Shown here: in pieces, positions 7,793-51,138 of the stretch
Position numbering within the stretch: position 1 is the stretch's first letter
Layout: each line of letters opens with the position of its first letter
Virus record (IMG/VR): IMGVR_UViG_3300044961_000053
Coordinates: 1 to 54,215 of that record
DNA from: a virus
Direction: 5' to 3' (one strand)
Length of the DNA: 54,215 bases
Program-made: the position numbers and the translations under genes
Notes under the pieces: model-generated
The model's database searches: none
Told to the model about the DNA's origin: nothing
Seen by the model: only the letters and a program-made list of their open reading frames with translations

Positions 7793-7796
7793 GTAC

Positions 7797-7876
7797 ATGC
7801 ACCGTAAGCGTACTACGGTATCCGCTGCAATGCGGATAACTCCTTGAACCTGAGCCGGCAGGGTGTACGCACCGGC
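7797..7876 (+). ncRNA. Structured segment after tRNA-Arg
   Basis: Directly after the tRNA CCA lie three stems: ACCGTA/TACGGT (7801-7819, 7-nt loop), ATCCGC/GCGGAT (7820-7837, 6-nt loop) and GCCGG/CCGGC (7854-7876), the last competing with GGTG/CACC (7862-7873). A linker CTCCTTGAACCTGA joins the second and third. No ORF fits and it is not a tRNA. It may be a small RNA released when the tRNA 3' end is processed, or a leader for the ORF at 7900. Confidence 0.4.
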
Positions 7877-7899
7877 ACTTATTGAATGGAAATCGCAAA

Positions 7900-8109
7900 A
7901 TGAATATCAACATAATGGCTTCTGCGTTTCGTTTAAACGTAACGCAAATAGATGGGGTAGACATGGCATCTATAGGTACCGAGCGTTACTATTCGTTTAT
8001 TAGTAACGTGTGCCAAATTTACAACCGCTCATGGATTCATATAAATAGCGGCCACTTACACGATATGTCTAGTGTACAATATTTTGAAGGTAGCGGCCAC
8101 AAAGAATAA
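7900..8109 (+). CDS. Hypothetical 69-aa protein
   Basis: ATG 7900 is preferred to ATG 7882 because only a weak GGAA lies at a suitable distance; neither start is strong. The sequence (MNINIMASAFRLNVTQIDGV...) has an aromatic, polar C-terminal half. It ends 6 bp before tRNA-Leu. Function unknown. Confidence 0.5.
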   Translation: MNINIMASAFRLNVTQIDGVDMASIGTERYYSFISNVCQIYNRSWIHINSGHLHDMSSVQYFEGSGHKE

Positions 8110-8115
8110 AATTGC

Positions 8116-8200
8116 GGGGCTGTGGCGAAATAGGTAAACGCAGCGGACTTAAAATCCGCCGACTTCGGTCTTAAGGGTTCGATTCCCTTCAGCCCCACCA
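8116..8200 (+). tRNA. tRNA-Leu (UAA)
   Basis: 85 nt class II tRNA with encoded CCA. Acceptor GGGGCTG/CAGCCCC, anticodon arm GCGGA-CTTAAAA-TCCGC, a long variable arm (CGACTTCGGTCTT region) and T-arm AAGGG/CCCTT. Reads UUA/UUG. Confidence 0.97.
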
Positions 8201-24300: not shown

Positions 24301-27300
24301 AATACCTTCGGCAGCCGCACCTTTAGATGCAGCGTTGTAAATATCATATCGCGCAACAGCCTGTGCAATAGTAACTAAGTTGTTAGTTGTTAGATAAGGA
24401 GGCTTTCCAAGGACAGACCTCCAAATATTAGTAAACAAAGTTCTAACAGCTTCGATAAACTTACTTAAAGTATTAGACTTTTTAGATAAATTAAGTTTGA
24501 CAGCTTCTTCGATCGCATAAGGCAGTATTTCGGACTCATAAAATCCGCTTGCCTTTGCGCGTTTGTTAGCAATTTGAAAAACTTTGTACTCGGGGCTATC
24601 AAATTTAGCGTTGGCCCACGATTTTACTTGAGCTTTAAGCTCATTATATTTTGCATCCGAGTTTAAATAGCGCGCAAGACTACGATGCGCAACTTCGTGC
24701 GCATAAACCGCTATGCCATCTTCGATAGAATCTAAGTTGCTTGCTACGACATAAATGTTTCCAGTTGATGAGTCAAAAACTCCTTTGACGCCAAAAGAAC
24801 GTAGGTCTAGCGATTGTTGAGTTCTTTGGTATACGCCATTCTTGTATCTTTTAGAAACAATAAAAGCTACTCTATGCGAAGGCTCTCTTTTTGAATCGAG
24901 TGCGCGTTCGATTTGTTCGGGTGTAAGAGTTATGTCTTCCCGTTCAGCAACAGCTAAACGAACATTTTCATTAGGCTCTCTTTCTGGATCAAGAGCGCGT
25001 TCGATTTGTTCGGGTGTAAGAGTTATATCTTCTCGTTTGACAACGGCTTCACGAACGTATTGACTAGGTTCTCTTTCTGGATCAAGAGCGCGTTCGATTT
25101 GTTCGGGTGTAAGAGTTACATTTTTTCGTCTAATAACCTCTATGCGAACAAGTCCATTAGGTTCTCTTTCTGGATCAAGAGCACGTTTAATTTGTTCAGG
25201 CGTAAGAATTACATCTTGCCGTTGAATGACAGCTGTACGAACTGCACTAGAATACCTACTTTTTGGATCAAGAGCATGTTCAATTTGTTTGGGTGTAAGC
25301 GTTATATCTTGTCGTCGAACGACAGCTAGATGAACGCGAGAATCGGGTTCTATTTCTGGATTAAGAACACGTTCAACTTGCTCAGGCGTAAGAATTACGT
25401 TTCTTTGTCCAGCAACACCTCTACGAATTTCTTTTGGTACGCTATTTGGGTCTAAATAATCGTATTTACCAGTAGAGTGCAGTGCTAAGTAGAGCGTGAT
25501 ACTAGCACTTTCACTTAAAGTGTAATTTTTAGTAAAATTCTGTATTTCTTCTGCGTATTCTGGAGGAATAGTGCCGTCGTTCCTCTGAGACTGAATCTCT
25601 ACAATTTCATCTCCTTGAAATCTAACTGCTAACAAAGACTCGTTGTCTTTGCGAAAAACAAACATCGGCCCTAAAAGAGCATATGTTTCTTCCACTCCTC
25701 GACTAGTACACCAGTCTTGTCTAGTTCCTTTAGCAAAACTTAGATTTCTCCAAATAGCAAACTTTTTATTGCGTTCTTCTTGAGAATCTGTATTTAAAAC
25801 TTGAGGCAACTCAATCCATCGGCCTCCTTCAAGGCCGACGATAGTAGTTTCAGCAATTTCTTCTGCAAAATTTTGCGCTATTTCAGCATACAATTTAAGA
25901 GCTTTTTTAGGCGTTGCAACTCTATTATTCTTAAAATTTAACGCTACTTCCGCTGTTGCAGCGGGTATTAATCTAGGCGGCAATTCAAATGTATTGCTGT
26001 CAAGACCAGCTATAGACATACGAAGCAAAAGAGACTGTAGTACAGGCTCTGTTGAATAAGCATTCTTTAAATAATTGTAATTAGCGTCGATAACTTCTTG
26101 CTGACGCGCTCTAGCTTGCTCCACAACTACTTCATCACGCCCGGCTATACGTCTAAGAGGGCTGCCTTTTATTCTGACATTTTCAAAATCCTGTCTAGCA
26201 AGCTCGTTAATATCTTCTAAAGTTTTTGCATTAGCAAACTCAACCCACTTACCTTGGTCTGCCAAAGTAATCCAGCTTGCGTACTCGTTTTCTGCTTTAA
26301 ATCGCGCGACTTTCTGGCTAAACTGAAGTTCAGAAGTTCCGTACTCAAACGGCAAGTCAGCTTCGGTATCGACTATACGAAATCGAGAACTTAGTAATTC
26401 AGGATTTTTAACACCAACCCAGTCAGCAATAGCGGACCAAAGTTGCTGAACTCGTACAGTCCTAAGTCCAGACGTGACTTCAAAACGCTGACTCAGTTCA
26501 ATAGGGCGCGAGCGATTCTCACCCTCCATTGACGGAAGATGCGTATCCAATGCCGCTTGAAGTTCAGTAGCGCCCACGCCATTGCGTTCGGCAATAGAGA
26601 TAATAACCTGCTCTTTTAGATCTCTAAAAAATTTTGGTGAAGCCAAAAAGGCCGCCCGCATCTTAGCAGGAAACCTACTTTTTGCTGCTTTTTTAGTTAT
26701 GTCTAAAATATCTACAGCAGACTTAACCCATTCAGAAACTCCATCGGCCGTTAAGTCAGTTGGTTTTGGAATATTTTTAAAGCCAATTTGAACAAAGTCA
26801 TTAATTAGTTCCGGCGTAATTTGAACAGACGCATCGGTCGGAGGCGTGGGAGCAGCCGGAGCGGAAGCAGCCGAAGGCGTGGAAGCAGACGGAGCAGCCG
26901 AAGGCGTGGAAGCGGCCTCAGCAACCAGAGGCACAGAAGCAGCCGGAGCAGAAGCGGGCGGAGGCGTGGAGGCAGCCGAAGGCGTGGGAGCAGCCGGAGC
27001 GGAAGCAGTCGAAGGCGGCGATACGTCAGGCCGCCGTCTCAAAACATCTTGACGAACTTGGTTAGTATTCGCAATCGCAGCATCATACGTAGCAACAATG
27101 TTACTAAGTTGTGTAGCAAGTCCACGTTGCGTATTCGACACTCTATTTTGCGGAACTCCAAGAGCTATGCCGGTATAAACAACATCCTCAGGAGTTATAA
27201 TTTCTGGGTTTTTAGTCAGCTCTCTAGCTGCATTTGCTATACGGCCAGTCATTTCATTGCGCGCTAAATTTTCTACAATATTTAAATTCACAGTATTAGG

Positions 27301-32669: not shown

Positions 32670-34500
32670 TATTATAAACCTCTACTAATTCAGCCATGCT
32701 AGTTGCTATATGGACTTCTTCGACAACAGACTTACCACATAGTTCTATTTCCCACTCCAAACCTTTTCGACTTCTAGGTAATGTGAAGGGCCTACTATGT
32801 GTTATAGCCCTACTAAAAACTAACCTACCATCTAAATACAAATTCATGGCAAGCGGGCCTGATGCGTCATGCACAACTTTCGCAGCACTAAAAGCAGTGG
32901 GTTCATTTAAAACAAATTTTTTCGACCGCCACACATAGTTACTTAAAGAAGGGCTTACTGGAACGCCACTGCTTATAGCGTCTGTTCTATGTAAAAAGTA
33001 CACTCCATCATCAAAAAGTGCATAGACTCCGAACGGAGTTTCTACAGAAAAATACCTATTCCTTGATTGCAAAGTTAATTCGGGATGTTTAAAAGTAGTT
33101 AAAGCCCCGAAATCTACTGAGTGTTCATTAGGATCGACTTGTAAACAAACACCCTCCGTATTGCCCAATAAACCTAGTATATAGTATCGTCCGTCCCAAT
33201 AAAAAGCGTATTTTGGAAATCTATTAGGGTTACTGGGATTCCAAAAATTCGATCCAAATTCAAAAAGTTCTTTACTCAACATATTCTGTTGAGCTTGATT
33301 TATAGCCACTACACCATTATAGCTAGTATAAACTGCGCCAAAACTGGTACTGCATAGAGTATTTTTAACACAAGGCTCATCTAAAGAGAGAACTGTTTGA
33401 CTAAACGTTGGCCCATTTTCTGTATCTGTAACTTCTACAATAATAGGTTTTTCTACAGTGCCAAAGATTAAGCTGTTTCTAAAAGAAACAACATCGTACA
33501 CATGACTTGCCGTAGATACTGGTAACCTAGTAGAATAGAATGGAATTCGAGTATCGAAATTCAACTTCATTCTGTTACTAATCGGCCATGCGTATTTATT
33601 ATTCAACTTAGATACGCATAAAGTATTCGATTCGATCTCTCCATTATACTCTGTAGTACCGAACAGCCAATACCTACCACTCTCAAGTCTACCTAAATGT
33701 GAAAATGTACCGCAAGGTCCGGTGTTATCAAAAGAAGTTAAAGTTTCATTTTTTAAATCGGCATCAAACAGATCGTCTACAATAACCAATTTTCTAAAAG
33801 AAGGCGTAACAGACTGCGCCATTTGAAACGTATAGCTTCTTAACAGTAAAAAATCGGTGTTAAAATCATAAGTTAACTGCTCTCCAGTTCTTGGTTTAGA
33901 AACCGTTCTATATACTTTAAAAAACAAAGGAGTATGCGCGAATATTTCTTCTCTAATACCTATCTCTAATGAGAGAATGTCTCCTTCAAAAAACGGAGTT
34001 GAAGCGCTTCCGCTTTCTACGTCAAGAACTATAGGAGGAGATTCACCATCTCTATTTATATAAGTTATCGCATACGCTCTTGCAATAGGCGTAGTAGTTA
34101 AATTTCTTGAAGTTCTATTTTCAGAAATTACTGTAGCCCATGTGAAACCTGAAGAAAGAAAACTAGGAGGGTGTACAAGTGGAACTGGAAGAACGGGAAC
34201 GCTGGTACTTCCAACAACTTCGATAACATTAGACCCATTAACTATATTAGGGTTTAAAGCAAGGTCATTAAAATAAACATCCCATCTAGGTTGAGAAACA
34301 GGCGTAGTCCCAATACCTAAATCGCCTTTGATTAGACTATGAAATACGCCACTTTTGAAAAGTTTCCAATCAAAAGTGGGCCGCAACTTACCGTCTCGCA
34401 AAAGAACATTTTGCGCTATTTGAGCTTCGTTATTCTTAAGAAGTTTTGAACTAACCTTAGGACGAAGCCCACTAAAGTTAGTTATTCTAATTGATGGCAT
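32659..34500 (-). CDS. Tail hub / stabilisation-type protein, 613 aa
   Basis: Opens with IRITNFSGLRPKVSSKLL, then NNEAQIAQNVLLRDGKLRP, a segment I know from large structural proteins of many podoviruses that lie between adaptors and internal proteins (the gp12/tail tubular B or stabilisation-protein position). The rest is beta-rich, with many YYIL, FGVYALF and similar strands, as in a beta-propeller. Start ATG overlaps the previous stop (TAATG). Assignment by N-terminal pattern and synteny. Confidence 0.7.
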   Translation of the reverse strand: MPSIRITNFSGLRPKVSSKLLKNNEAQIAQNVLLRDGKLRPTFDWKLFKSGVFHSLIKGDLGIGTTPVSQPRWDVYFNDLALNPNIVNGSNVIEVVGSTSVPVLPVPLVHPPSFLSSGFTWATVISENRTSRNLTTTPIARAYAITYINRDGESPPIVLDVESGSASTPFFEGDILSLEIGIREEIFAHTPLFFKVYRTVSKPRTGEQLTYDFNTDFLLLRSYTFQMAQSVTPSFRKLVIVDDLFDADLKNETLTSFDNTGPCGTFSHLGRLESGRYWLFGTTEYNGEIESNTLCVSKLNNKYAWPISNRMKLNFDTRIPFYSTRLPVSTASHVYDVVSFRNSLIFGTVEKPIIVEVTDTENGPTFSQTVLSLDEPCVKNTLCSTSFGAVYTSYNGVVAINQAQQNMLSKELFEFGSNFWNPSNPNRFPKYAFYWDGRYYILGLLGNTEGVCLQVDPNEHSVDFGALTTFKHPELTLQSRNRYFSVETPFGVYALFDDGVYFLHRTDAISSGVPVSPSLSNYVWRSKKFVLNEPTAFSAAKVVHDASGPLAMNLYLDGRLVFSRAITHSRPFTLPRSRKGLEWEIELCGKSVVEEVHIATSMAELVEVYNNDA

Positions 34501-35963
34501 TATGCTTTGACAATTATATAACCAAGTTGGCTAGTCGTTAACGAAAAACCAGAGCCCAGTGTTGAATGCCTAAGTTCTAAAACTTTCGGACCTGCGCCTG
34601 TTATTTTCGCCATTACAGTGTGGATGTTACTTTGTACAATTCTAGTTCCTGACACTAAAGAACTATCTACAAAAATTCCTATACCAAATTCTGCTACAGA
34701 AGTTAATGGCGTCGTCGAGTGTGTAGCAATCGCCGACGCAATGGCAAAAATAGCTTCCCCCGCATTTAAATTTACGACTGTAGAGCTAGCTGTAACTGTA
34801 TAGGCAGCCGCAGCTTCGCCCGAGCTAGCTCCCAAGAGCCCGTTAGCAGACCCCGCCGTGAAGCCGCTCAAAACCGCGTCCAGACCGGCAGGCGATACCG
34901 CCCTTAGACTGTCTCCGGCGTCCCTCGATTCAGTCGCCGTGGGCGGCGCAAGCCGCACCACGCCCCACCCATCAGTAGCGGTGGAAGCCGCGTGCGCACG
35001 CAGCGTAACCGCGTGCCCCACTCGCGTTAGAGACAACGAATTTGCGGTCTCCAAACTTAGATGCAAGCTATAGTCAAATATCGGACCGCTATGTGGACCG
35101 GGAGGTACAGGAATCGCAGTAATACGCCCCTGAGCATCCACGATAAACCCGGCGTAATTACCAGAAACTACGCCAGTATTTGTTAAACTGACAATAGGAG
35201 ATACTGTAGGTAAGCCTGTAACTACAATTCCAGTTCCAGCAGAAACTTCAGTAACCGTACCAGACCCGCCTATCGGACCTGTGTAGCTTATTTCAAAATT
35301 AGGATACGTTCCAGTAACTGATATATTAGCCCCCGCAGTAATGTTCACAGGGTCTGCATTGATTACATACGTACCGTCTATATCGTTATAAACTACGTTA
35401 ACGATACCAGTCCCTAAAATAAGCTCCCCAACATCCGGCATCGGCAACATAGGCGGCGATGTTAAACCGCAACCTAAATTAAGCGCGCTTCTATCGAAAC
35501 AAATTGTGTAGTTAGGAAACGTACCTAAAACTTCTACTGGAGAATCTTCACAAGCCTGAATATTAACTGGAGGGACGTTAACTATATAATTACGTGGAGT
35601 TGGTTGTGTAACTGAGGCCGCTCCAGTACCCGTAATGCTAAGACTAGTATCAACACCACCTTGAGTCACTAAATCGAAAATAGCACTTGGGCCAAGAACA
35701 GAAGTAAAGCAGTCATTAATGGCCCACGCTCTTGCAGTAGTTCCGTCTTGAGCACGCACAATAGATGCAAAACTGCCGCTGACTCCGGTAATTTTTACAA
35801 CTTCACGATGCGGACCGTCTGCAAAAGCGACATATGTCCATGCTCCGCCAGTCAATTGCGATGCAAGAAACGCCGCATCTACCGGTGTCAATTGCATAGA
35901 CGTAGCCCCGCTAGCAAGTGGGGCCACTAATCTAGAAGAAAAAAGAGGAATAAATTTATACAT
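34500..35963 (-). CDS. Tail fibre protein, 487 aa
   Basis: N-terminal 120 residues form a receptor-independent attachment-like domain (RLVAPLASGATSMQLTPVDA, then VRAQDGTTARAW). Middle: Gly/Thr/Val-rich repeats typical of fibres (GTGIVVTGLPTVSPIVSL, VDAQGRITAIPVPPG). C-terminus: a compact beta domain (residues about 370-487), likely the tip. Host recognition is the probable role. It precedes the hub gene in transcription. Confidence 0.85.
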   Translation of the reverse strand: MYKFIPLFSSRLVAPLASGATSMQLTPVDAAFLASQLTGGAWTYVAFADGPHREVVKITGVSGSFASIVRAQDGTTARAWAINDCFTSVLGPSAIFDLVTQGGVDTSLSITGTGAASVTQPTPRNYIVNVPPVNIQACEDSPVEVLGTFPNYTICFDRSALNLGCGLTSPPMLPMPDVGELILGTGIVNVVYNDIDGTYVINADPVNITAGANISVTGTYPNFEISYTGPIGGSGTVTEVSAGTGIVVTGLPTVSPIVSLTNTGVVSGNYAGFIVDAQGRITAIPVPPGPHSGPIFDYSLHLSLETANSLSLTRVGHAVTLRAHAASTATDGWGVVRLAPPTATESRDAGDSLRAVSPAGLDAVLSGFTAGSANGLLGASSGEAAAAYTVTASSTVVNLNAGEAIFAIASAIATHSTTPLTSVAEFGIGIFVDSSLVSGTRIVQSNIHTVMAKITGAGPKVLELRHSTLGSGFSLTTSQLGYIIVKA

Positions 35964-38500: not shown

Positions 38501-39427
38501 TTAAGCAGCGTAGACGTAACCAACGGCTAAACGCTCTGGATAGAGAACCTTCGTACCCCACAGAGCTAAACCTTGGAACAACGTACCAAAGTAATCCGAA
38601 CTGGTTTCATCACGAGTTTTATCAAGCTGAGCAGTAAAACCAGTAGCGGATTTCGATCCGGCAATAATCCACCAAGCCTGCTGGTTCACACCGGCATCAA
38701 TCACACTCGGAACATGGTTAGAAACATACACGTCAAACCCGGCAACTTTCGGAGGCGTGTGACCTTCGATAAGCGGCGACCACGTAGTACAGGTCGTAAA
38801 GCAGTTTGACAGTTCCGAAGTCATCAAGATAAGTTCAATACGTGGCGGAACGATAACAAACAAGTCATCTTCCGGAACGCAGGCTTCCTTAAGAACCATT
38901 TTCATCGAAAGCAAGAATGCTAAAACATTCTCACTATCAAGCGGAAATGGGTTGCCGGTTTCGCCAAGATTGTAAGACTGCGTTTCGGCACCAGCGTTAG
39001 CACCCTGATTTTCAGGAGCAACTTCGACAAACTGAGTGCCCATCACTTGCTTGTCGATTGTGACGCCGATCTTGTAAGCTGCACGACGGAAGATAGCATC
39101 CGTAAGCTGCGCAGAATTACAAATCTGCTTCATGTCCACATCATCGATTTTGACCGAGAAGTAGTAGCTCTGGTCAATGTTCATAACAACAGTGGACGTA
39201 TCCGGAGTAGTATGCTCAAGTTTTTGATTTTTGACATACGGACGGATTTCGACATCAGGCTCTTTACGGAAAATAGCTTGAGTACCACAGCTACTCAGTT
39301 CCGCACGAGTTTCTGAAATGTTAGGGTAGATCGTAGCACAATAGGTCAAGTCGAGAAACTTATCGACATAGACCGGATCGGTAAAAACATTAGTAAGTTG
39401 TGGATAACCACTGGCAGCGGGAATCAT
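38501..39427 (-). CDS. Major capsid protein
   Basis: 308 aa with the strongest ribosome site of the late operon (AAGGAG, spacing 7), as expected for the most abundant protein. It sits immediately after the scaffold gene. Mixed alpha/beta with an extended arm and a long spine-like helix (ENVLAFLLSMKMVLKEACVP), consistent with the HK97 fold. No N-terminal delta domain is obvious, in line with a separate scaffold. Confidence 0.88.
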   Translation of the reverse strand: MIPAASGYPQLTNVFTDPVYVDKFLDLTYCATIYPNISETRAELSSCGTQAIFRKEPDVEIRPYVKNQKLEHTTPDTSTVVMNIDQSYYFSVKIDDVDMKQICNSAQLTDAIFRRAAYKIGVTIDKQVMGTQFVEVAPENQGANAGAETQSYNLGETGNPFPLDSENVLAFLLSMKMVLKEACVPEDDLFVIVPPRIELILMTSELSNCFTTCTTWSPLIEGHTPPKVAGFDVYVSNHVPSVIDAGVNQQAWWIIAGSKSATGFTAQLDKTRDETSSDYFGTLFQGLALWGTKVLYPERLAVGYVYAA

Positions 39428-40745: not shown

Positions 40746-41168
40746 TTAAGTCCCATAGTTGTTTGTAGGTTTACTTGTTCGTAATAAATCCGATGGGTAA
40801 GCATCTACATAAACTTCGCCTATTCGGCCCGTCAAGCGGGCTCTGTAGCGCCCGCTGACAGAAAGGATATGAGAGGGCCTAGTCGGTGTCAAGACAATCG
40901 CACTGCCATCAGGATGGACGGCAGGCGCATACATAGTACCCGACCCAACTCCAGCGACCATTTCAATAGTTACATACTCACCTGAGGTCAAATTAAAAGC
41001 TCGAATTGAGTACGGTTTGTTAACAACAGCAAATACTGCTGAAACATCGGTCAAGTTATCCGGACCAAACAAAATCCGAGAATCGCCATTTAAAATCTCG
41101 CCCGGCAACGCTAATGAATTGTCAGGTAAACTTTGCACAAATTGCCCCACTATATTAGCCATTACCAT
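40746..41168 (-). CDS. Hypothetical 140-aa beta-rich protein
   Basis: ATG 41168 has AAGG five bases upstream; ATG 41162, which forms TAATG with the previous stop, is the alternative. Predicted beta-sandwich (PYSIRAFNLTSGEYVTIEMV, SHILSVSGRYRARLTGRIGE). Could be a fibre-base or head-surface protein. No family recognised. Confidence 0.7.
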   Translation of the reverse strand: MVMANIVGQFVQSLPDNSLALPGEILNGDSRILFGPDNLTDVSAVFAVVNKPYSIRAFNLTSGEYVTIEMVAGVGSGTMYAPAVHPDGSAIVLTPTRPSHILSVSGRYRARLTGRIGEVYVDAYPSDLLRTSKPTNNYGT

Positions 41169-41725: not shown

Positions 41726-41926
41726 CTAGCTGCAATTTGCATGTGTTAAACGCAATATACCTTCCAGTTGCGCCACGAAATCCATGCTGATGGGACGATC
41801 ATCCGACCACCAGTTAAAGCCGTCGGACCAAACAGGCACCACTGATGAGCCGCCAATCGAGACCTGTTGTAAAAACCCCGCTTGCGATGAATCGACGACA
41901 ATATATCTCGCTCCTATACCAGCCAA
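41726..41926 (-). pseudogene. Fibre-like ORF without a clear start
   Basis: The frame ending at 41726 gives a protein-like sequence (GARYIVVDSSQAGFLQQVSI, PVWSDGFNWWSDD) but has no convincing start. TTG 41926 is the first plausible one, and further upstream the frame is Arg-rich shadow. It may be the broken C-terminal part of the fibre gene at 42090-42398, reached by a frameshift, or a remnant. The real boundaries are uncertain. Confidence 0.4.
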
Positions 41927-42093
41927 TGACGCCGGCGGCAGTGGGTCACCGTTATCCCGACCTTCCGGCCTTCCTCCACGGTCTGGGCTGCAACCGCCAG
42001 CGGCGCCAGTACGCCCTCGCAAGTCGGGCAGCCGCGCTTCTTCGATTCGCTCAATTTGTTCATGGCTTCTGCGAGCATGGATTCCCGGCTCAC
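41914..42093 (-). CDS. 59-aa Cys-containing protein in a GC-rich patch
   Basis: GTG 42093 overlaps the TGA of the upstream fibre ORF (GTGA); ATG 42078 is the alternative. Sequence KRGCPTCEGVLAPLAVAAQT has a CxxC, with a later HC pair (TVTHCRRRHW), so metal binding is possible. Base composition is much richer in GC than the capsid genes. Unknown function. Confidence 0.5.
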   Translation of the reverse strand: MSRESMLAEAMNKLSESKKRGCPTCEGVLAPLAVAAQTVEEGRKVGITVTHCRRRHWLV

Positions 42094-42398
42094 GGCACAC
42101 CCCCGAGCATCGCAGCGACCGACGCCAGCGCCGCAGCGTCCGCGTAGGACCAACGTGCAAACGGTTGTTGACCGCCTGCCGGATCGTCTTTCCAACCTCT
42201 CGCGCCGCTGCTGTCCGTGCCGTAGACCTTGTTCGGCCCGGGACTGGCCGTGTCGCCGGCGAGCGAGAGCGTGCGGTTGGCGCTCAGGTCGCCACCACCG
42301 GTCAGACTGTGTTGCGTCGCAACTTCACGTGACGCAGGAACATCCCCACCTCCACCACCAGCAGGTTCATACATTACATTGTTTTGAGTAATAGTCAT
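42090..42398 (-). CDS. Short tail-fibre protein or fragment, 102 aa
   Basis: ATG 42398 overlaps the previous stop (TGATG), with GAGAG upstream. After a Gly-rich joint (PAGGGGGDVPA) comes HSLTGGGDLSANRTLSLAGD, then KVYGTDSSGARGWKDDP, repeat motifs common in phage fibre proteins. It stops much earlier than usual fibres. It may be a small fibre-tip adaptor or a truncated fibre acquired with the GC-rich patch (41930-42340). Confidence 0.65.
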   Translation of the reverse strand: MTITQNNVMYEPAGGGGGDVPASREVATQHSLTGGGDLSANRTLSLAGDTASPGPNKVYGTDSSGARGWKDDPAGGQQPFARWSYADAAALASVAAMLGGVP

Positions 42399-42748
42399 CA
42401 CTTACTCTCGACAGAGGTTCCTATAACAACGCCTGCTGCATCAGACGAACTCCAGCCACTACCAACTTTCGCTCGAACCTGCCACTCTCCACCTAAATAA
42501 ATAGTAGCAGCAAAACCGTTTGCCGTTTGCGTATGTACAGTAGACCACTCATCGTCTGGAGACGGCCAAGGAGTTTTATCGAAATTAAAATATGGTCTAA
42601 TCTGTAGTTCTACTGGAGCCGGAAGCGGATCGTATTCAACATCATACAATCCAGCAGCAAACATAGTAGCTTTACCGTTAACAAGTCTAACGGCTGGAGT
42701 AGCTGGAGCGCTCGAAGAAAGCACAAAGTAAACTTCATTACTGCTCAT
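42398..42748 (-). CDS. Hypothetical 116-aa beta-sandwich protein
   Basis: GGAGAG five bases before ATG. Beta-rich with a Pro/Trp-rich middle (YFNFDKTPWPSPDDEWSTV) and an Ig-like end (EWQVRAKVGSGWSSSD). Lies between the glycosyltransferase and fibre fragment; likely a surface-exposed accessory fibre or head protein. Family not recognised. Confidence 0.75.
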   Translation of the reverse strand: MSSNEVYFVLSSSAPATPAVRLVNGKATMFAAGLYDVEYDPLPAPVELQIRPYFNFDKTPWPSPDDEWSTVHTQTANGFAATIYLGGEWQVRAKVGSGWSSSDAAGVVIGTSVESK

Positions 42749-43332
42749 TATAGCTCTCCAATAAACGCACTGAACTTTTGTTTATTCATCCAACGCATCC
42801 ACGAAGCTCTTGTAGCATTTCGTCCGTGAATAACTCGATGTAATAAAAACTCCGGACTTATAGTACCCTTATGGTTTTTAGCTAGTGCAAGCCATAAAAG
42901 CGCATCTTCAACAACTCTACATCGTTCCAATAATCCGTAGTATTTTTCTACTACACTACGTTTAATTAATTTAAAACCTTGGAAGTAATAAAGCCGCTTT
43001 TTAGCTACATTAAAATCAGTCGAAGATGGTATTACACCGGCTTTGGTGTCACCCTCTATTGAATAGCCAGAAATTATAAAATCGTTGTCTTTTATTCTGT
43101 CTAATTGAGTATCAACGGCGCCGGGTAAAAGATAGTCGTCGTCATCAATAAAACTGACATACTCTCCATCGCCCTGCTTAAAACCTTCTACACGCAATTG
43201 CCCGAAGTGCGGGTCAGAGTTACCGATGACTTCGTGAATTCTAACTTTTGGATGCGCTAGAGATTGAGCACAGCGTTCAAACCACTCAGGTTTAGCTAAA
43301 GAATGGTACCGAATGACGTGTATATCGATCAT
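42748..43332 (-). CDS. Family 2-type glycosyltransferase
   Basis: 194 aa. Rossmann-like start (MIDIHVIRYHSLAKPEWFER) and the DxD metal site in SFIDDDDYLLPG (D63-D66), followed by VVEDALLWLALA with the general-base region (E/D) of GT-A enzymes. Expected to move a sugar from a nucleotide donor to an acceptor. Encoded inside the late fibre cluster, it may modify virion fibres or the host surface. Shorter than cellular GT2 enzymes but with the core motifs intact. Confidence 0.85.
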   Translation of the reverse strand: MIDIHVIRYHSLAKPEWFERCAQSLAHPKVRIHEVIGNSDPHFGQLRVEGFKQGDGEYVSFIDDDDYLLPGAVDTQLDRIKDNDFIISGYSIEGDTKAGVIPSSTDFNVAKKRLYYFQGFKLIKRSVVEKYYGLLERCRVVEDALLWLALAKNHKGTISPEFLLHRVIHGRNATRASWMRWMNKQKFSAFIGEL

Positions 43333-43463
43333 AATCTACCTGAATAAAAGCCAAGTAGAAACGCTATAGAAATGGAAAGTCCTATACGCCATCCTATACA
43401 AACAGAACAATCTGTTCCTAAAGTAAACAGATTAAAGAGAAACACACCTATCTTCTCGATCAT
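43329..43463 (-). CDS. 44-aa membrane protein
   Basis: ATG 43463 overlaps the previous stop, and its TGA overlaps the glycosyltransferase ATG (ATGA at both ends). Two hydrophobic parts (VFLFNLFTLG and IGLSISIAFLLGFYSG) with two Cys between. Position before a glycosyltransferase suggests a membrane anchor or partner for it; a holin is also possible but the lysis cassette lies elsewhere. Confidence 0.7.
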   Translation of the reverse strand: MIEKIGVFLFNLFTLGTDCSVCIGWRIGLSISIAFLLGFYSGRL

Positions 43464-45076
43464 GGCGGAGGTCCGGACGGTAAAATTTCACCTTCAAAAA
43501 GCACTGTATTATTGCCAATATTCGGTTCAGAAATTCCACTAACAGTAAATATATGAGAAAACAGCCCCGGCTCAATAGGCGTAAACCACATTCTAACGAA
43601 TATAAATCCACCGGGAGGTACGTTTTCAACAGTATAGCAATCGTTAAACTCAGCTTCGGTTAAAACAATATCCGGGCCTTCTTCCCAACTCTTTCCTATA
43701 ATATACATGCCTTCTCCAAACGGAAATTCTTGAAATTCCGGTCTAGGAATCGGCATACAAATAGTAACTTCATTTGCAACTGAAACGCCATTATTTCTGG
43801 CGATGACATCAACCCAACTATCAACACCAGAAACAAAAGTGTAGCTTTGTTCAACTATCTCAATACTTAAATCTTCGGTATCAACAGAAACGTGTAAAGT
43901 AGCTGAATCAAATGACTGCCCTTCATTAATATACAAAGGTAGTAAATCAACGAAGGTGGTGTTAGTATAAGTGCCAGGTTCCCAAGGGTACACTTGATAA
44001 CTAAAAGTTACCTGACCTCCAGCAGGTATGCCACAATAAAACCCCGCTACTAATTGTGTTGAAGTCACAGAAGCGGGACCAAAAGCGCCGCCAGTGTACG
44101 AAATTAAAATAGGCTCAGAAGTTGAATAATTACCCGCTAAGTTATCTCTAACCAAAGCGTCTACAGCATCTTCTGGACCGGCGTTAGATATAGTAACAGT
44201 AAAAGAAGAGATTTGACCATAAACGATGCTGCTTGGAGTGGCGACTTTATTCACTGTAAGGTTTACAGTTGGTGTGCAATCCACATTGCATAGGTATCTA
44301 GCTATATCACTAGCCGGAATAGAGACTATACAATTAAACTCATTTAAAGCAAGTAATCGTAGAGGGAACCTATCAGGCGAGGGTTGTATAGTACTTCCAA
44401 AATTACAAGGGTCTAAAAGCGAGCTTAAATTAACATAAAGCCCGTCAGGTCTAACCTGAATTAAATTACCTTCGTAAGGAGAAACTAAAACGTCCGAAGA
44501 AAGAATTCGTATACCAGCAATTTCTGTTACAGTATGGTCGATAGTGGTAGTATCTGCTACATCAATCGCAAAAGTATTAGCTATGTGCCATGTAATATCG
44601 TTTAACTGCCGAACTTCAATACCTCTACCTGCCACAATTTCAAACGGCGGTGGACGAAGGCACTCACAAAGCCTACGCAGTCCATTAGATAAAACTTCAT
44701 TAGCCCACTCATGGGTCATACTAAACTGCCACCAAAAGCAGTGCATGAACCCGTGAGAGCCTACAAAACGCAGTCTATATCTGCCTGACTTATGAAGAAC
44801 TATCTCATTTTGATCTTGAGTAAGCGTAAGTTCACCGTCAAATGGCTTATACGCCTCGAAATTATCACCTGAAAGTTCTCCAACAAGTTGAAGAACTTCA
44901 ATGTACTCATTTTCTCGCAGACCAAACGCGACTACTTTTACCGGTTCTCTGTCTACGTTTATATTTGCAGACATGAAACTGGTTGACGTTGGAGAGAACG
45001 CCATAGAAAAAGGTTGGCGCTCTCGCCCGGCAGCCCACGGCGTAGGTATCGGATGCGTTGATTTCTTGTTTGCCAT
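43460..45076 (-). CDS. Fibre-like protein with DUF11/CARDB Ig-like domains, 538 aa
   Basis: Residues 1-270 are homologous to the N-terminus of the 847-aa protein at 45078 (NVDREPVKVVAFGL; FSMTHEW; LCECLRPP). The C-terminal half has Ig-like domains of the DUF11/CARDB type (about 285 on: VNLTVNKVATPSSIVYGQIS; about 420 on: LSIEIVEQSYTFVSG). Ends in Pro-rich PSGPPP. Ig-like domains on phage virions usually bind sugars or mucus. A head- or tail-fibre role is inferred. Confidence 0.8.
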   Translation of the reverse strand: MANKKSTHPIPTPWAAGRERQPFSMAFSPTSTSFMSANINVDREPVKVVAFGLRENEYIEVLQLVGELSGDNFEAYKPFDGELTLTQDQNEIVLHKSGRYRLRFVGSHGFMHCFWWQFSMTHEWANEVLSNGLRRLCECLRPPPFEIVAGRGIEVRQLNDITWHIANTFAIDVADTTTIDHTVTEIAGIRILSSDVLVSPYEGNLIQVRPDGLYVNLSSLLDPCNFGSTIQPSPDRFPLRLLALNEFNCIVSIPASDIARYLCNVDCTPTVNLTVNKVATPSSIVYGQISSFTVTISNAGPEDAVDALVRDNLAGNYSTSEPILISYTGGAFGPASVTSTQLVAGFYCGIPAGGQVTFSYQVYPWEPGTYTNTTFVDLLPLYINEGQSFDSATLHVSVDTEDLSIEIVEQSYTFVSGVDSWVDVIARNNGVSVANEVTICMPIPRPEFQEFPFGEGMYIIGKSWEEGPDIVLTEAEFNDCYTVENVPPGGFIFVRMWFTPIEPGLFSHIFTVSGISEPNIGNNTVLFEGEILPSGPPP

Positions 45077-45077: not shown

Positions 45078-47621
45078 TTAGTCGCAAATAGCGTCGCAAT
45101 TAAGAGTAGGCGAGCCTATAACAGCCACATCAGAATATAAAGTCGGAGTACCGCCTATATAAGAACCCGCCTTGCTTACACAACCACCAGAGAAACTTAC
45201 ACCAACGTCATAGATATTTTGTTGCGGATCGCACTGTACAGCACGCAATTGGACAATGTATTTCCAACCGCTGACATTCCACGTTCTAAAATCAACTCCG
45301 TTTCTTGCATCAAACGGTGCTGGCGATCCGTCTAATAACTGAGTTTGTTCACTAATTATCTGGAACCTTGGCACGAAATTTCCAACAAGCGCAAAAGGCC
45401 CGGTCCGCGCTGCGCATTCAGGAGTTGGCGAATTAGACTCTGCTCTAAACACTACAGTAGCTATTTCGCATTTCGCCCCTACAGGAATGACACTTTCAAC
45501 TTCAAAATTTAAACCACAACAATTTGGCGATGGGCCAGACCCACTTTGAGTAACAGCCGGGAACTGAATCGGAATAGTGTAACTAATGTTAGTGCCAGGT
45601 ATTAAATTACCTAAGTTATCTACACATCTTGCACCAACAGTGAAATTAGTAGACCCTCCGCTATTTAGCGCAGACGCGGTAAAAGTGTAACGTACAGTAA
45701 AAGAAGTTACATTAGCGAAGTAAAAATCTACTTCAGAAGTTGTGGGGTTAAACGAACTCGGAAGCCCGAATACGTCTATTTCGGAAACTGTCCACCCGCT
45801 CGGAATTGGAAATGGCTGCGATAATGCAAAGTTTTTAGTACGAGCCAAAACTGCATTCTGTCCGGTTAAAGTAACTTCTAAGTAGAACGAATCTCCAACA
45901 GAAACTGGCGCGGATATAGACGAGAAAGTATGGCTATAAGCACTTGAACACGTAGGCGGAGGCTCACCTTCGCAGTTTGCGTTAACTTGCGGAAACGAAA
46001 TAGTAACGCTCTCACTAACAAAAGTATCTCCAAGTTGGTTTCCAAAAGAATTAAAGCACGCTCCGCTAACCGTAAATGTTCTAGTAGTAGAAGAAACGCA
46101 AGACACAGCTCGAAGTCGAATTACATTAGTTACAAAATTAGTTCCAGCAGTGCTATGGTTAACGCCAAATCTAATATCCTGACTAGCAGGAGTACTTGTA
46201 ACGCTATCAATAACCCAACCCGTTGGAGTCAAGTCACTTAAATCGTTGACAAATAAACGGCCGTGACAGTTCGGATTAAAGGCTGCGATTGAAATCACAG
46301 TTACATCGAACGTAGCACCAACGGCAACCGGCACAGTCGGCGGTGTAGAGCTTATGTTAATAATTAAAGCGCAGCAACTCGGTGGAGGCGGCGGTTCTTC
46401 TCCACAATCTTCCGTAATTGCAGGTAGGTTAACAGAAACAGGGTAGGAAACTTGCGATCCGTCAATCAACTGTCCTGCATTGTTTCTGCAATTTCCAGTG
46501 GCTGTAAAAGCGACATTTCTACCGACTGGGTTGCATTCAACTGCAACAAACGTAAAGACTACAGACCAAGACGTTATATTGGCTGTATGAAAATCAATAC
46601 TGGTATACGGATTTTGCCCGGTAAAACTGGTGCCTTGGAATCGCCAACCATTGATAGTCTGCCCAACTATCGGGGCAAACGTGAGCGGATTTGTAAACGC
46701 TCTACATATGGCTGCATTAGAACCAGTAGCAGTAAGCGTTATATTAATAGTCGTTCCAACTCCAATACTTTCAAGAGTCTGAACTACATGACTGAAAGTT
46801 AAAGCGCAGCAGTTTGGAGGAGGCGGTTCTTCTTCGCACTCAAACTCACAAACATAGTTAGCAAGAGACCGTGCTCTTACCCAACGAATGCAACCTTGAT
46901 TATCTAATACAAGAAAGCGCGCATTTCTTACAAGCCCATTAAATGGCTGAACAAGCGTGCCTAAATTGCATGGAGCGTTAGGGTCGGAAAGCGTTGCATA
47001 CAAGCCATCATCACGAGCAAACATTTCATTGCCCGGATCTTCCGACAACTTAACATGCGAACTCAACACTCCTTCAACTATCTGATGATCTACAGTAGTA
47101 GAATCATCAGCAGTATGGATGGCGGTGTTCGTAACTCGCCAAGTTCCTCCACCCAAATCCTCGACTAAGATGCCGTTTCCAGCAACTAACGTAACTTCAT
47201 TGGGACGAACGCAATCGCACAAATAACGAAGTGCTTCTGCAATTTCATCATACCACTCATGCGTCATACTAAAAGTCCACCAAAAAGCGGTGGACTCTGT
47301 AGAACTGCTAACTAACATTTCAAGCTGGTATCTTCCCGATCTATGAAGAATGACTTCATTTCGGTTTGCGTTAAGAACGATACCTTCTGGATAAGGAAGG
47401 TAAGGCTCACTTAGCAATTCATCGTTTACACCAACAACTTGATTTACACGAATCTCTGCATCACCAGTCAGCCCCATAACAACGACTTTGACTGGCTCAC
47501 GATCGACGTTTATTATAGGCGACGTAGTTGCCGTCGGCGAAAAGACAAACCTACTAATTAAAACCTCTGATTGCCCAGAAGCAAGAGTAGGAGTCGGAGT
47601 TTTAGAAATTTCGTTAGCCAT
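45078..47621 (-). CDS. Cys-rich fibre-like protein with four Ig-like units, 847 aa
   Basis: Residues 1-265: attachment module shared with the 538-aa neighbour. Then four units of about 140 aa (about 266-405, 406-551, 552-696, 697-847). Three of them start with a Pro-rich joint and a CC pair (PPPPNCCALTFSHV, PPPPSCCALI, SPNCCGLNF), and the third has TCSSAYSHTF instead. Each carries further paired cysteines (CRNNAG, CFNSFG, CVDNLG, CVSKAG). This suggests disulphide-stabilised beta domains on the virion surface. Ends CDAICD. Probably a host-contact fibre. Confidence 0.82.
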   Translation of the reverse strand: MANEISKTPTPTLASGQSEVLISRFVFSPTATTSPIINVDREPVKVVVMGLTGDAEIRVNQVVGVNDELLSEPYLPYPEGIVLNANRNEVILHRSGRYQLEMLVSSSTESTAFWWTFSMTHEWYDEIAEALRYLCDCVRPNEVTLVAGNGILVEDLGGGTWRVTNTAIHTADDSTTVDHQIVEGVLSSHVKLSEDPGNEMFARDDGLYATLSDPNAPCNLGTLVQPFNGLVRNARFLVLDNQGCIRWVRARSLANYVCEFECEEEPPPPNCCALTFSHVVQTLESIGVGTTINITLTATGSNAAICRAFTNPLTFAPIVGQTINGWRFQGTSFTGQNPYTSIDFHTANITSWSVVFTFVAVECNPVGRNVAFTATGNCRNNAGQLIDGSQVSYPVSVNLPAITEDCGEEPPPPPSCCALIINISSTPPTVPVAVGATFDVTVISIAAFNPNCHGRLFVNDLSDLTPTGWVIDSVTSTPASQDIRFGVNHSTAGTNFVTNVIRLRAVSCVSSTTRTFTVSGACFNSFGNQLGDTFVSESVTISFPQVNANCEGEPPPTCSSAYSHTFSSISAPVSVGDSFYLEVTLTGQNAVLARTKNFALSQPFPIPSGWTVSEIDVFGLPSSFNPTTSEVDFYFANVTSFTVRYTFTASALNSGGSTNFTVGARCVDNLGNLIPGTNISYTIPIQFPAVTQSGSGPSPNCCGLNFEVESVIPVGAKCEIATVVFRAESNSPTPECAARTGPFALVGNFVPRFQIISEQTQLLDGSPAPFDARNGVDFRTWNVSGWKYIVQLRAVQCDPQQNIYDVGVSFSGGCVSKAGSYIGGTPTLYSDVAVIGSPTLNCDAICD

Positions 47622-47903: not shown

Positions 47904-49880
47904 TTACGCTCCCGTAGGTAGATTAACTGGCGTCGGAAACGCCGGGTCCACGTTAGGCGGCTGACTCTGCGGCGGTAATGGTACAGGCGTCGAGGTGCCC
48001 CGAGCAAGGCCGTTGACGACTCCAAGCCGACTCAAAGCGGACTCCAATTCTTGCATTCTATTTGGGTCAGGAATAATGTCGTCAACTGGCAATCCTGTAG
48101 TTTTAAGTATTTCTCGCAAGAGAATTTTAATTGACTCCATGTCAAGAGCTCCAGCTTGAACGTATGGAGTAAGCAGATTTAAAATCTCAATAGTACGAGT
48201 TTGAGCTAGTTCTCGCTGCAACAAGCCTGACGCACCACGGGCAACTATTTGGGCATCTGCTTTAATATCTTCGTCGTCACCCATGGCCATGTTTAAAACG
48301 TAGTAAGACTCGACCATGGGTTCTATGATGTCTCTATCGATATTTAAAAGCACTTGTTTAATGCCTTTAGCTGCATTGCCCATCAACATCGAAAGTCCGC
48401 CAAGAGTTCGCCCTGCTCCAGCAACTTGCGGATTGCCTAATACATAAGCTGGAACTTGGCTAAAATCGTCAGCCAGTTTCATGTAATACGCAAAGGCTTC
48501 CATAAGTTGGTTGGCAACGTTTGGAACAACCTTAAACCGCATAGCTTCGCCGTTTTGCCCGCTGTAATCCGGCTTGACACTATAAATGCGGAAAGGTTGA
48601 ATTTCAGTAAAATTCTCTCCAGCTTCAAATCTTTCGGCTACGGCTTCTGCAATCGGACCAGCGGAATACGCAAAATTACGCAGTGCAGCACGCATCGACG
48701 CATTAGCCATGCGTTCGATGTCTCTAACTAAATCAACAACACCTTGCCCCGCAAAAGTACCGGGAACCTTGCTAAAGCAAGTTGAGTAAATAGGGCGAGA
48801 AAGCAGTGGGTGAGTATTTAAAACTGCACGAATGCAAATGTTGTCAACTACCCAAATCTCACTTTCATAGTGCTGCTGTAAGTCAGGAACAATAACTCCG
48901 TTATCAAAAAGAAGATCGCCCGGAACAAGTCCGTTCATTATGAGGACTTCAACTAGATTTCCATTGAACAGCGTTTCTTCTTTTTCTTCAAGGCTATCAC
49001 GAGTGCTGTCGCCTTGAACTTCTAACGAATACCCATGTTTGTAGGTATCTAAAACCTGTCGAATGGCTTCTTCATTAAACCCCGGAAGTCCAATGCAGTT
49101 GTATAACTGTGGATGTCCAAGCCTTGCTCTTTGAATGAAATACTCGCCGTCTTGTGGCGAAGTAGAGTCCGGCGACCAGAAGCAATCGAACGGAGATATG
49201 TTTTTAACGGACCAGACGGGTTGTTGAGTTACTTTAAACTTATCTCCATCCCACCGCCCCATGGGTTTTGCAGTTATGACAGGCGCTCGAATAACTGCAA
49301 ATGGGAAAACAGTAAGATTGTGAATAAAAGCCGCAAACTCAGTTCTCCAACCGCCTTCAATTAGTTGATCCTCAATATGCCGTTCCATAGCAGCAGAAGC
49401 ACGTTCTGCTTTTGCAAAGGCATATTTCAAAGTCGCAGTTTTTAACTCTTTAGCTTTATCCATAAGGGCGGACATGTTTTCCATTCCACCCAATGCCGCT
49501 AATTCCTCCTCCAACATATCAACAACCTGATCTTTCATCCACTCAGGAAGATCGGGAATAGGAGTAGGTTTAAGAGTAAACGGTTTATCAATCGAACTTA
49601 GAAGAATGTCAGTTATCCACGACTCGGCGCCTTTACTTTTTAAGTCGCACAGACCGACGTAAATGTCTATGCCATTATGAAGCTGCAATTCTTCTTGAGT
49701 ATACTCACGTTTTTTAGCACGAAGGCACGCTTCTAAGCGTGAAGTCAGCCCGATTTCAACTCGATGCCTTTCAGCTTGTTCAAACTTCGACTTAACATAC
49801 TGTCCTAAAGCCTGCTCAACAGTCAACTGAGCCATGCTCTGTTCGTACAAAACAAATGGATCATCACTCGTTTTGTCCAT
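47904..49880 (-). CDS. Portal protein
   Basis: 658 aa, GGAGG eight bases before ATG. Large alpha-helical protein with features of podoviral portals: VEIGLTSRLEACLRAKKREY at the N-terminus, an FPFAVIRAPVI wing, SPFDCFWSPDSTSPQDGEYF, and the late RTLGGLSMLMGNAAKGIKQV stem region. The C-terminal 40 residues are Pro-rich. Forms the dodecameric DNA gate at the vertex and pairs with TerL. Gene order (terL, lysis, portal) is unusual in placing the lysis cassette between them. Confidence 0.92.
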   Translation of the reverse strand: MDKTSDDPFVLYEQSMAQLTVEQALGQYVKSKFEQAERHRVEIGLTSRLEACLRAKKREYTQEELQLHNGIDIYVGLCDLKSKGAESWITDILLSSIDKPFTLKPTPIPDLPEWMKDQVVDMLEEELAALGGMENMSALMDKAKELKTATLKYAFAKAERASAAMERHIEDQLIEGGWRTEFAAFIHNLTVFPFAVIRAPVITAKPMGRWDGDKFKVTQQPVWSVKNISPFDCFWSPDSTSPQDGEYFIQRARLGHPQLYNCIGLPGFNEEAIRQVLDTYKHGYSLEVQGDSTRDSLEEKEETLFNGNLVEVLIMNGLVPGDLLFDNGVIVPDLQQHYESEIWVVDNICIRAVLNTHPLLSRPIYSTCFSKVPGTFAGQGVVDLVRDIERMANASMRAALRNFAYSAGPIAEAVAERFEAGENFTEIQPFRIYSVKPDYSGQNGEAMRFKVVPNVANQLMEAFAYYMKLADDFSQVPAYVLGNPQVAGAGRTLGGLSMLMGNAAKGIKQVLLNIDRDIIEPMVESYYVLNMAMGDDEDIKADAQIVARGASGLLQRELAQTRTIEILNLLTPYVQAGALDMESIKILLREILKTTGLPVDDIIPDPNRMQELESALSRLGVVNGLARGTSTPVPLPPQSQPPNVDPAFPTPVNLPTGA

Positions 49881-50148
49881 TTACAGAGCCTCCATTAACT
49901 CTTGACTGCAAATCTTCCAGAGACAGAATGCAACTTCTATACGCACCTGCCGCATAGATATAGAAAATGATTGCTTCTTCGTCAGTTTTGATTGTACTGA
50001 CTGGTGGAAACGGCAGTACGGGCTTTGCTACAACTTGCGGGCATACTGTCGCCACGGGCAATTCTTTCTGCTTGCTCCAAAATGCACAACTCGTCAGGAG
50101 TAAGCAGACGAGGCTCACTGTCACTAATTTTAGCGGATACTTTTGCAT
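49864..50148 (-). CDS. rz1: Outer-membrane spanin subunit, Rz1-like lipoprotein
   Basis: 94 aa. Signal peptide (LKLVTVSLVCLLLTSC) with lipobox LTSC, acylated Cys21. The middle is Pro-rich (VAKPVLPFPPVSTI), as in o-spanins. It overlaps the i-spanin gene by 167 bp in another frame and reaches into the start of the portal gene. With the i-spanin it fuses inner and outer membranes at the end of lysis. The C-terminal tail is longer than in lambda Rz1. Confidence 0.85.
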   Translation of the reverse strand: MQKYPLKLVTVSLVCLLLTSCAFWSKQKELPVATVCPQVVAKPVLPFPPVSTIKTDEEAIIFYIYAAGAYRSCILSLEDLQSRVNGGSVNGQNE

Positions 50149-50425
50149 CTTGAATTACTCGCTGAAGTTCATCGAATCTTCTGATATAAGTACGATCCAA
50201 TTTAGCACTTTTATCTGCAATGCCTTCGAGGACTGCACTTTTTGCAGTAGCGACGTTTTCTTTAATTTCTGCAATCTCTTTATCTTTCATCGCCAGCATA
50301 GCGCCGTATCTTACATCCTGAATAGTCCAAGAAGTAAACCCACCGGCAACTATGCCTAAAATCGCTAAACTTGCGCACAATTTAGCCATCGTGGACGCTG
50401 AAAGCAGCTTTACTGGTGTAGCCAT
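49982..50425 (-). CDS. rz: Inner-membrane spanin subunit, Rz-like
   Basis: 147 aa from ATG 50425 (TGATG overlap with endolysin stop; GAGG six bases upstream). One N-terminal membrane helix (LCASLAILGIVAGGFTSW, about 16-34), then a long periplasmic coiled coil (DKEIAEIKENVATAKSAVLE...). This is the classic i-spanin layout, with rz1 embedded in the 3' half. Confidence 0.88.
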   Translation of the reverse strand: MATPVKLLSASTMAKLCASLAILGIVAGGFTSWTIQDVRYGAMLAMKDKEIAEIKENVATAKSAVLEGIADKSAKLDRTYIRRFDELQRVIQDAKVSAKISDSEPRLLTPDELCILEQAERIARGDSMPASCSKARTAVSTSQYNQN

Positions 50426-51138
50426 CACACACCTCGCTCTTTATAGACACGAAACCGCCCCCATGCAGCGATTCCAATACCTACTAGCGTAAGAACCACG
50501 AACACCGTTTTAACGACATCCGAGTACACTACAAGCGGTGCAACCTCACTCGCTAACTGAGCGGCCTCCGTACCAACTACTCCTACAGCACTAACTGCAA
50601 GTCCTGCATTAGTTGCAGACTTTAATGGGTATCGAGGATTTTCTTCGGGAGTTTCTGACGCAGGTTTTGGATTTCCCATCAACTCCAGCATTCCTCTCTC
50701 AAACATCTGCCTTTCTTTAGCACGTCGAGCTACTAAACCCGGCAAAGGTTCAAGTTTTCCAGTCTTGGGGTTTCTTGAATTAACCCATCTGCCAAACTGT
50801 TCAGCAGCTTTTACATACTCTCCTTCGTTGAGATACCGAAGAAGCGTCGAAGTTTTAAATCTCTCACACCCAAAATTAAAGACAAAACTCACCAGCGCAT
50901 CGAACATCAACTGATTTATTTTCTGTGACACGTGCGTATTCACACACTGCTCACAAAGCATAATGTCTCTTGCAAGCAAATTTTCTGCTTGCGCCTCATC
51001 AATGCGCATTCCTTCTCTAGCAGTTCTAGTATGCCCATACCCAATGGTCCACTTTCCTGCCGGACATCTGTAGGCTGAGAGCCGCAGTCCTTCACTCTGT
51101 TTTATTAGAGCCGCTCCGTGTGCGCTTATCTTGTGCAT
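50425..51138 (-). CDS. GH24 endolysin (T4/P21-type lysozyme) with C-terminal membrane segment
   Basis: 237 aa, GGAG six bases before ATG. Catalytic motif E16-8aa-C25-5aa-T31 (EGLRLSAY, CPAGKW, TIGYGHT); Cys instead of Asp at the second site is a known variant in lambdoid and P21-like lysozymes. Residues about 1-160 form the muramidase. A linker and an extra C-terminal part follow, with a strong transmembrane segment (VFVVLTLVGIGIAAWGRF, about 212-230). There is no N-terminal SAR signal, so the enzyme might be held at the membrane until the holin acts. Confidence 0.92.
   Translation of the reverse strand: MHKISAHGAALIKQSEGLRLSAYRCPAGKWTIGYGHTRTAREGMRIDEAQAENLLARDIMLCEQCVNTHVSQKINQLMFDALVSFVFNFGCERFKTSTLLRYLNEGEYVKAAEQFGRWVNSRNPKTGKLEPLPGLVARRAKERQMFERGMLELMGNPKPASETPEENPRYPLKSATNAGLAVSAVGVVGTEAAQLASEVAPLVVYSDVVKTVFVVLTLVGIGIAAWGRFRVYKERGV

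Follow-up and report, generated by a model that had tools for sequence, protein, structure and literature searches.

A cysteine-rich phage protein of four Ig-like units as a putative capsid fibre

The minus-strand ORF at positions 45078-47621 of IMG/VR virus record IMGVR_UViG_3300044961_000053 (54,215 nt, called the window here) starts with ATG and encodes an 847-aa protein, P0001, the last 584 residues of which consist of four homologous units. The Cys residues of this protein are nearly invariant across its relatives, which suggests that each unit is a bead stapled by internal disulphides. We consider it likely that such bead-internal disulphides are present in the mature virion and reasonably probable that P0001 sits on the capsid rather than on the tail. 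The mechanism taken as a whole, in which P0001 is a Hoc-like capsid fibre whose Ig beads are stapled by disulphides, is on balance our preferred explanation, in an estimate that treats the pairing of the Cys residues and the place of the protein as only loosely correlated.

The four units of P0001 and their predicted fold

An initial annotation had described a Cys-rich fibre of four units of about 140 aa, three of which begin with a Pro joint and a CC pair. Both statements were borne out: P0001 has 28 Cys (3.3%), its units span 141 to 154 residues each, and the CC pairs at residues 271/272, 416/417 and 701/702 follow the Pro-rich joints that open U1, U2 and U4. U3 opens differently, with one Cys after its Pro joint, and has only two Cys in all. 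The description was incomplete in that it passed over the N-terminal ~265 residues, which hold six further conserved Cys. The gene and its units are as follows.

45078..47621, minus strand: Cys-rich fibre gene P0001 (ORF; homologues with the same gene order in IMG/VR contigs)
46398..46832, minus strand: unit 1 (264-408), 6 Cys (C271 C272 C306 C363 C378 C406)
45966..46397, minus strand: unit 2 (409-552), 6 Cys (C416 C417 C452 C508 C522 C550)
45543..45965, minus strand: unit 3 (553-693), 2 Cys (C558 C666)
45081..45542, minus strand: unit 4 (694-847), 8 Cys (C701 C702 C718 C736 C797 C814 C842 C846); the most divergent unit and presumed tip of the fibre

The Cys content of P0001 was compared to that of 25 other late-strand ORFs (65 of 9107 residues, 0.71%; Fisher p 1.5e-9), a set of our own choosing that includes some non-virion proteins and omits ORFs that are short or overlap others, including two spanin-like ones at 49864-50428 with 3 and 4 Cys. 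When the units of P0001 were aligned with one another, all six pairs scored higher than 500 of 500 shuffles, the narrowest margin being that of U3-U4 (score 54 versus 53 for the best shuffle). Masking of Cys left five of the six pairs above every shuffle, and the U3-U4 score was reached by 8 of 500; for this pair in the homologues L003 and L004, the best shuffle was not exceeded even without masking. U3 and U4 were nevertheless grouped as homologous because each clearly resembles U1 and U2. A profile built from 18 units gave exactly four matches in each of the six records, out of eight, that hold the gene, and none in the remaining two, which are fragments. At least three CC pairs occurred in 4.4% of 20,000 shuffles of the P0001 composition, which makes the motif only mildly unusual, while at least three including one pair at the unit pitch occurred in 0.39%; the CC motif alone is therefore weak evidence, and it is its register with the units that is decisive.

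Relatives of P0001 were found in seven IMG/VR contigs (L001 to L007), and a profile search returned the identical seven. The full-length homologues were 99.9% (L001), 72% (L002), 50% (L003) and 50% (L004 and L005) identical to P0001, L004 and L005 being 99.0% identical to each other, and the copies in L006 and L007 are cut off. P0001 matched no Pfam family at E <= 1 and no PHROGs family at E <= 0.1. The proportion of nonsynonymous differences (pN) between the window and L002, L003 and L004 was 0.16, 0.27 and 0.28 in the N-terminal base and 0.27, 0.50 and 0.51 in U4. The base ranked lowest or nearly so and U4 highest; U1 and U2 fell between them or near the base, and U3 came close to U4. Such a gradient would be expected if the base is fixed and the tip is exposed and adapting.

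An AlphaFold model of U1 made from the 18-row alignment is a seven-stranded Ig-like sandwich (pLDDT 91.8, pTM 0.85; strands 12-17, 28-36, 43-47, 63-71, 88-97, 105-116 and 128-136). Its best PDB matches by Foldseek and VIA were mostly Ig-like surface domains and included those of pilins, a fibrillar adhesin, integrins and TRAP subunits. Because the highest VIA Z was only 7.6 (rmsd 3.0, 113 residues) and none reached 8, the unit family can be named no further than Ig-like. Among viral models, Foldseek returned nothing for the unit at E <= 0.001 and 10 matches for the base. Podoviridae sp. ct53O25 has both a 639-aa protein resembling the unit (E 0.031) and a 150-aa protein resembling the base (E 7.9e-5), an 877-aa protein of ctBev14 resembles the unit (E 0.0013), and a 485-aa protein of ctUS21 resembles the base (E 0.0012). 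By sequence, the whole P0001 family matched no solved structure at E <= 1; the best solved match of the unit profile, 5y9h (a SafD fusion; E 0.026), was set aside.

The N-terminal base and its genomic setting

The first ~265 residues of P0001 comprise a jelly-roll-like base, a helix and a stretch modelled with low confidence. These parts and the neighbouring genes that bear on them are listed here.

47268..47561, minus strand: jelly-roll-like base domain of P0001, residues ~21-118 (AF2 block pLDDT 68-89; VIA matches; hhalign to the 140-aa protein)
46836..47267, minus strand: helix (125-137) and low-confidence stretch of P0001, residues 119-262 (six Cys common to P0002)
43460..45076, minus strand: paralogue P0002, 538 aa (same ~265-aa base, C-terminal DUF11)
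42748..43332, minus strand: family 2 glycosyltransferase (Pfam E 9.2e-7; adjoins the fibre genes; same place in L001-L005 by ORF starts)
40746..41168, minus strand: 140-aa stand-alone jelly-roll paralogue (hhalign to the base; third base-profile match in the record)
38501..39427, minus strand: major capsid protein, context (phrog_267, E 1.8e-32)
47904..49880, minus strand: portal, context (phrog_332, head-tail adaptor, E 2.6e-32; SU10_portal, E 5e-9; matches annotated portal proteins)

In the base model, residues 21-118 were well predicted, residues 120-266 fell below 50, and the prediction was weak beyond 21-118 (mean pLDDT 52). The low values at 120-266 may reflect an obligate oligomer, and residues 119-262 perhaps form an oligomeric shaft. 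The best VIA match of the base was YomS (Z 9.4, rmsd 3.5, 100 residues), with the phage 7-7-1 capsid chain (Z 7.7, rmsd 3.9, 101 residues) and the KHP40 cement protein (Z 7.1, rmsd 5.0, 99 residues) lower; these scores are only moderate, and many unrelated jelly-rolls reach similar ones. The jelly-roll domain matched no Pfam or PHROG family.

P0001 and P0002 are 42% identical over residues 1-262, and the six base Cys, with spacings C135-X-C137 and C258-X3-C262, are invariant in 9 of 9 aligned base sequences. After this common base, P0002 continues with a DUF11 domain (PF01345; Pfam E 1.6e-7, 32.1 bits versus a gathering cut-off of 24.6) and P0001 with the CC units. P0001 did not reach the PF01345 gathering cut-off, a Pfam scan of its seven relatives gave one weak BatD DUF11-like match (E 0.15), and the CC units had no detectable profile similarity to the P0002 family, its DUF11 part included. 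Homology between base residues 23-111 and the 140-aa protein was found with hhalign (E 6.2e-10, probability 96.6). The latter is a candidate capsid cement protein; used as a query it found five loci, and its best match among solved structures had an E value of only 0.35. No similarity to the base was detected in the 116-aa protein at 42398-42748. Base-profile matches numbered three in each of G000-G003, two in G004 and in G005, and one each in the small fragments G006 and G007, the counts for G004-G007 being those of partial genomes.

The order portal, small gene, fibre, paralogue and glycosyltransferase recurred in L002, L003, L004 and L005, as judged from ORF lengths and starts. The reading of P0001 as a fibre is reasonable, and since the jelly-roll-like base also makes up a short protein encoded close to the capsid gene, a capsid (head) fibre seems likelier than a tail fibre. 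The position of P0001 in the gene order is compatible with a tail fibre as well, in which the same stapled beads would serve in host adsorption and the base would dock on the portal or the tail. Such an arrangement would suit the succession of portal, one small gene and P0001, the likeness of the beads to adhesin and pilin domains, and the high variability of the tip. However, the base is also found in that short protein near the capsid gene, capsid and cement chains are among the jelly-roll matches, and a separate protein at 34500-35963 weakly matches a tail fibre family (phrog_8469, E 1.9e-4), and we regard a tail-borne fibre as possible but doubtful. The family 2 glycosyltransferase next to the fibre genes might modify virion proteins.

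Identity to matching records was 23-30% for the portal (20 listed of 36) and 24-28% for the capsid protein (15 listed of 27). Among those listed, Rhizobium phages RHph_TM were the best matches of both, and HMO-2011-kind phages were included. Genes for DNA polymerase A and DUF927 are found in the early region. These identities and early genes suggest a podovirus-like phage that is distant kin of the RHph_TM and HMO-2011-kind phages. The Puniceispirillum phage HMO-2011 group has the portal, small gene(s), a large protein and the capsid genes in the same order, but the large protein at the fibre position has only 3, 1 and 1 Cys in HMO-2011, CRP-9 and ctYwJ313. Compared with these same-place proteins by blastp, P0001 had no similarity (HMO-2011, no match; CRP-9, E 3.8; ctYwJ313, E 2.5). 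No homologue of P0001 or P0002 was found by tblastn in phage records, nor of unit 1 in plasmids, and none of the 47 stretches of species genomes that fit a pattern encodes a P0001 relative. When the capsid protein was used as a query, five loci were found in viral contigs, which belong to the IMG/VR data sets that had supplied the P0001 relatives.

Several further features of these genomes were recorded. A tail-fibre-like gene near the fibres (42090-42401 and 41726-42160, minus strand) contains a 128-base segment that is absent from the near-identical L001, a difference that reflects either true variability at this spot or faulty assembly. This gene is represented by shorter ORFs in the window and L001 and by one ORF of ~350 aa in L002 and L003, and in L004 (10007-11219) and L005 (13302-13753) it starts with collagen-like GPPGPQGPQGP repeats, of which the window ORF has none. 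The 2546-aa product of a giant ORF (21364-29004, minus strand), which contains an LPD38 domain (Pfam E 4.2e-11) and only one Cys, is probably an internal virion protein. A cluster of four tRNA genes (Met, Lys, Arg and Leu) lies at 6323-8200 (plus strand). The first 17 residues of the ORFs at 6984-7181 (plus strand) and 7095-7295 (minus strand) are identical, which points to an inverted repeat. A 273-aa ORF between the terminase and lysis genes of L005 and L007 (2638-3459 in both), with no counterpart at that place in the window, has a DLFSGT motif and presumably resembles a DNA methyltransferase.

Conservation and predicted pairing of the cysteines

Cys conservation was compared across four distinct homologues (window, L002, L003 and L004). 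Of the 28 Cys, 26 were invariant, versus 261 of 819 other residues (p 5e-11), and even in U4, the fastest unit, six of eight Cys were invariant versus 18 of 146 other residues. No Cys outside the 28 columns was found in L002, L003 or L004. Synonymous differences were near saturation (pS 0.63-0.82 across comparisons) and both Cys codons were found in 24 of the 26 invariant columns, indicating that the Cys residues have been kept by selection.

The number of Cys residues that come and go together is also even. Unit columns 11 and 141, which are C272 and C378 in U1, hold Cys in 18 of 18 units, while columns 10, 55, 123 and 169 are jointly absent from U3 in all four homologues. The pair C718/C846, found only in U4, is present in the window, L002 and L004, its first Cys in L004 lying a few columns off in one alignment but matching in another, and L003 lacks both. 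Total Cys numbers were 28 in the window, L002, L004 and L005 and 26 in L003; L001 has 29, with one odd extra from R58C. Because only two evolutionary events lie behind the even-set pattern, it is weak when taken alone.

Prediction of the structure of a single unit, which had been proposed as a check, gave a confident Ig-like sandwich with a strand order compatible with pairing. When the U1 strand limits are combined with the generic Ig topology, an established one, Cys 8, 9, 43 and 115 of U1 would be gathered at one end of the sandwich, with Cys 100 and 143 at the other. A pairing of C272 with C378, C271 with C306 and C363 with C406 fits the model because these Cys would sit at common ends, the predicted strand order allows all three bonds, and C718 and C846 of U4 would also share an end. 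The claim that the domains are disulphide linked is well supported, if indirectly, by the near-complete Cys conservation despite almost saturated synonymous divergence, the even sets and the confident sandwich model; the bonds themselves we infer.

Bonds between chains, within an oligomer or from fibre to shell as in phages Milano and 7-7-1, would leave the beads without internal staples. Most of the bonds listed for those two phages in the cited parts of their reports do join different chains, and the six base Cys common to P0002 could link chains. Against this, each bead has an even number of Cys, the core pair is present in 18 of 18 aligned units, and the location of Cys close to strand ends suits intra-bead bonds, which leaves interchain bonding as an unlikely explanation. 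Conservation of the Cys for a metal (zinc or iron-sulphur) instead of for disulphides is very improbable: CC and CXC motifs do occur in metal sites and the six base Cys (C135-X-C137, C258-X3-C262) could form one, but U3, with just two Cys, could not furnish a zinc site by itself, and the Cys within units are spread along the chain, near strand ends. The reading that we prefer remains that of bonds inside the beads.

Known systems and a proposed mechanism

T4 Hoc, an Ig-string capsid fibre as described in the cited part of its report (PMC10385173), has the same overall design as P0001, which has a string of Ig-like domains in its four homologous units, each taken to follow the seven-stranded U1 model. 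Hoc binds the capsid through a C-terminal domain (PMC10385173, cited part), whereas the base of P0001, with its jelly-roll-like model, is N-terminal and its C-terminus is bead 4. Compared through family profiles, P0001 had no match to any Hoc family in Pfam or PHROGs. The words "disulfide" and "cysteine" are absent from the available portion of the Hoc paper (PMC10385173), and "disulfide" is absent from the main text, as far as available, of a review of decoration proteins (PMC7602432) and of the roseophage R4C paper (PMC10276861).

Disulphides had been taken to be uncommon in phage. According to the portions of the reports cited, they have been resolved in the virion of Agrobacterium phage Milano (PMC10491603, PMC10811340), where DTT abolishes the sonication resistance of the disulphide-rich particle (PMC10491603), in Agrobacterium phage 7-7-1, with nine bond classes in the capsid hexamer (PMC12796354), and in crAss001, in the tail hub, ring proteins and portal-vertex protein (PMC10172136). 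With these precedents the premise of rarity is dated, although, in the same portions, the bonds are mostly between different chains. Milano and 7-7-1 resemble this phage in having Cys-rich virion proteins, and the 7-7-1 capsid chain resembles the P0001 base; unlike in those phages, where bonds join several proteins in the parts cited, the Cys of P0001 lie inside Ig-like beads. The 7-7-1 linker protein has an Ig-type domain without further Cys (PMC12796354, cited part). A Cys-rich structural proteome of the Milano type was not found here, the 25 late-strand ORFs, some of them non-virion, having 0.71% Cys, and the capsid protein has 6 Cys in 308 residues. The crAss001 head fibres gp21 and gp29 are alike in that gp29 has an Ig-like C-terminal domain and, judging from the numbering, the gp21 gene probably follows that of portal gp20; they differ in that their anchors, residues 1-38 and 1-58, sit in a hexon pocket and the disulphides described lie outside the head fibres (PMC10172136, cited part). 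In literature on disulphide, Cys-rich or Ig-like virion proteins, a limited coverage with few subscription papers, we found no phage fibre whose Ig beads are bonded internally. Ig-string capsid fibres and disulphide-rich virions are known already; within that coverage, internal bonds in the Ig beads would be new to phage fibres.

We propose that the jelly-roll-like base (~21-118) docks on the capsid shell and that the helix and shaft (119-262) lead the chain outward to four Ig-like beta-sandwich beads separated by Pro-rich hinges. Each bead would be stapled by internal disulphides that close once the protein exits the reducing cytoplasm, presumably by oxidation after lysis or in an oxidising host; no thiol oxidase or thioredoxin was matched by Pfam in the 28 ORFs scanned, with most short ORFs outside the scan. 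The core staple of U1 would be C272-C378, with an equivalent in every aligned unit, and further U1 pairs would be C271-C306 and C363-C406, with U2 arranged likewise; U4 would have the extra pair C718-C846, and U3 would retain only C558-C666. Such staples would hold small, isolated beads in their folded state once outside the cell and give these thin, exposed structures resistance to unfolding and to proteases in water. The outer bead, the most variable, may bind a surface (host, other bacteria or particles), akin to what has been proposed for T4 Hoc.

A broader and quite speculative idea is a modular capsid display, in which a jelly-roll socket, three per genome, would bear nothing, DUF11 or stapled Ig beads. 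Complete folding of the beads would require oxidation outside the cell, which would leave the fibre soft during assembly and stiff on release without any bond-forming enzyme of the phage.

If the proposed mechanism is correct, bead-internal disulphides would join the repertoire of phage capsid fibres, and P0001 would offer a simple system for learning when and where a virion protein made in the cytoplasm is oxidised. The strict Cys pattern yields exact predictions of which Cys pairs with which, and the common socket may be useful for the display of domains on capsids.
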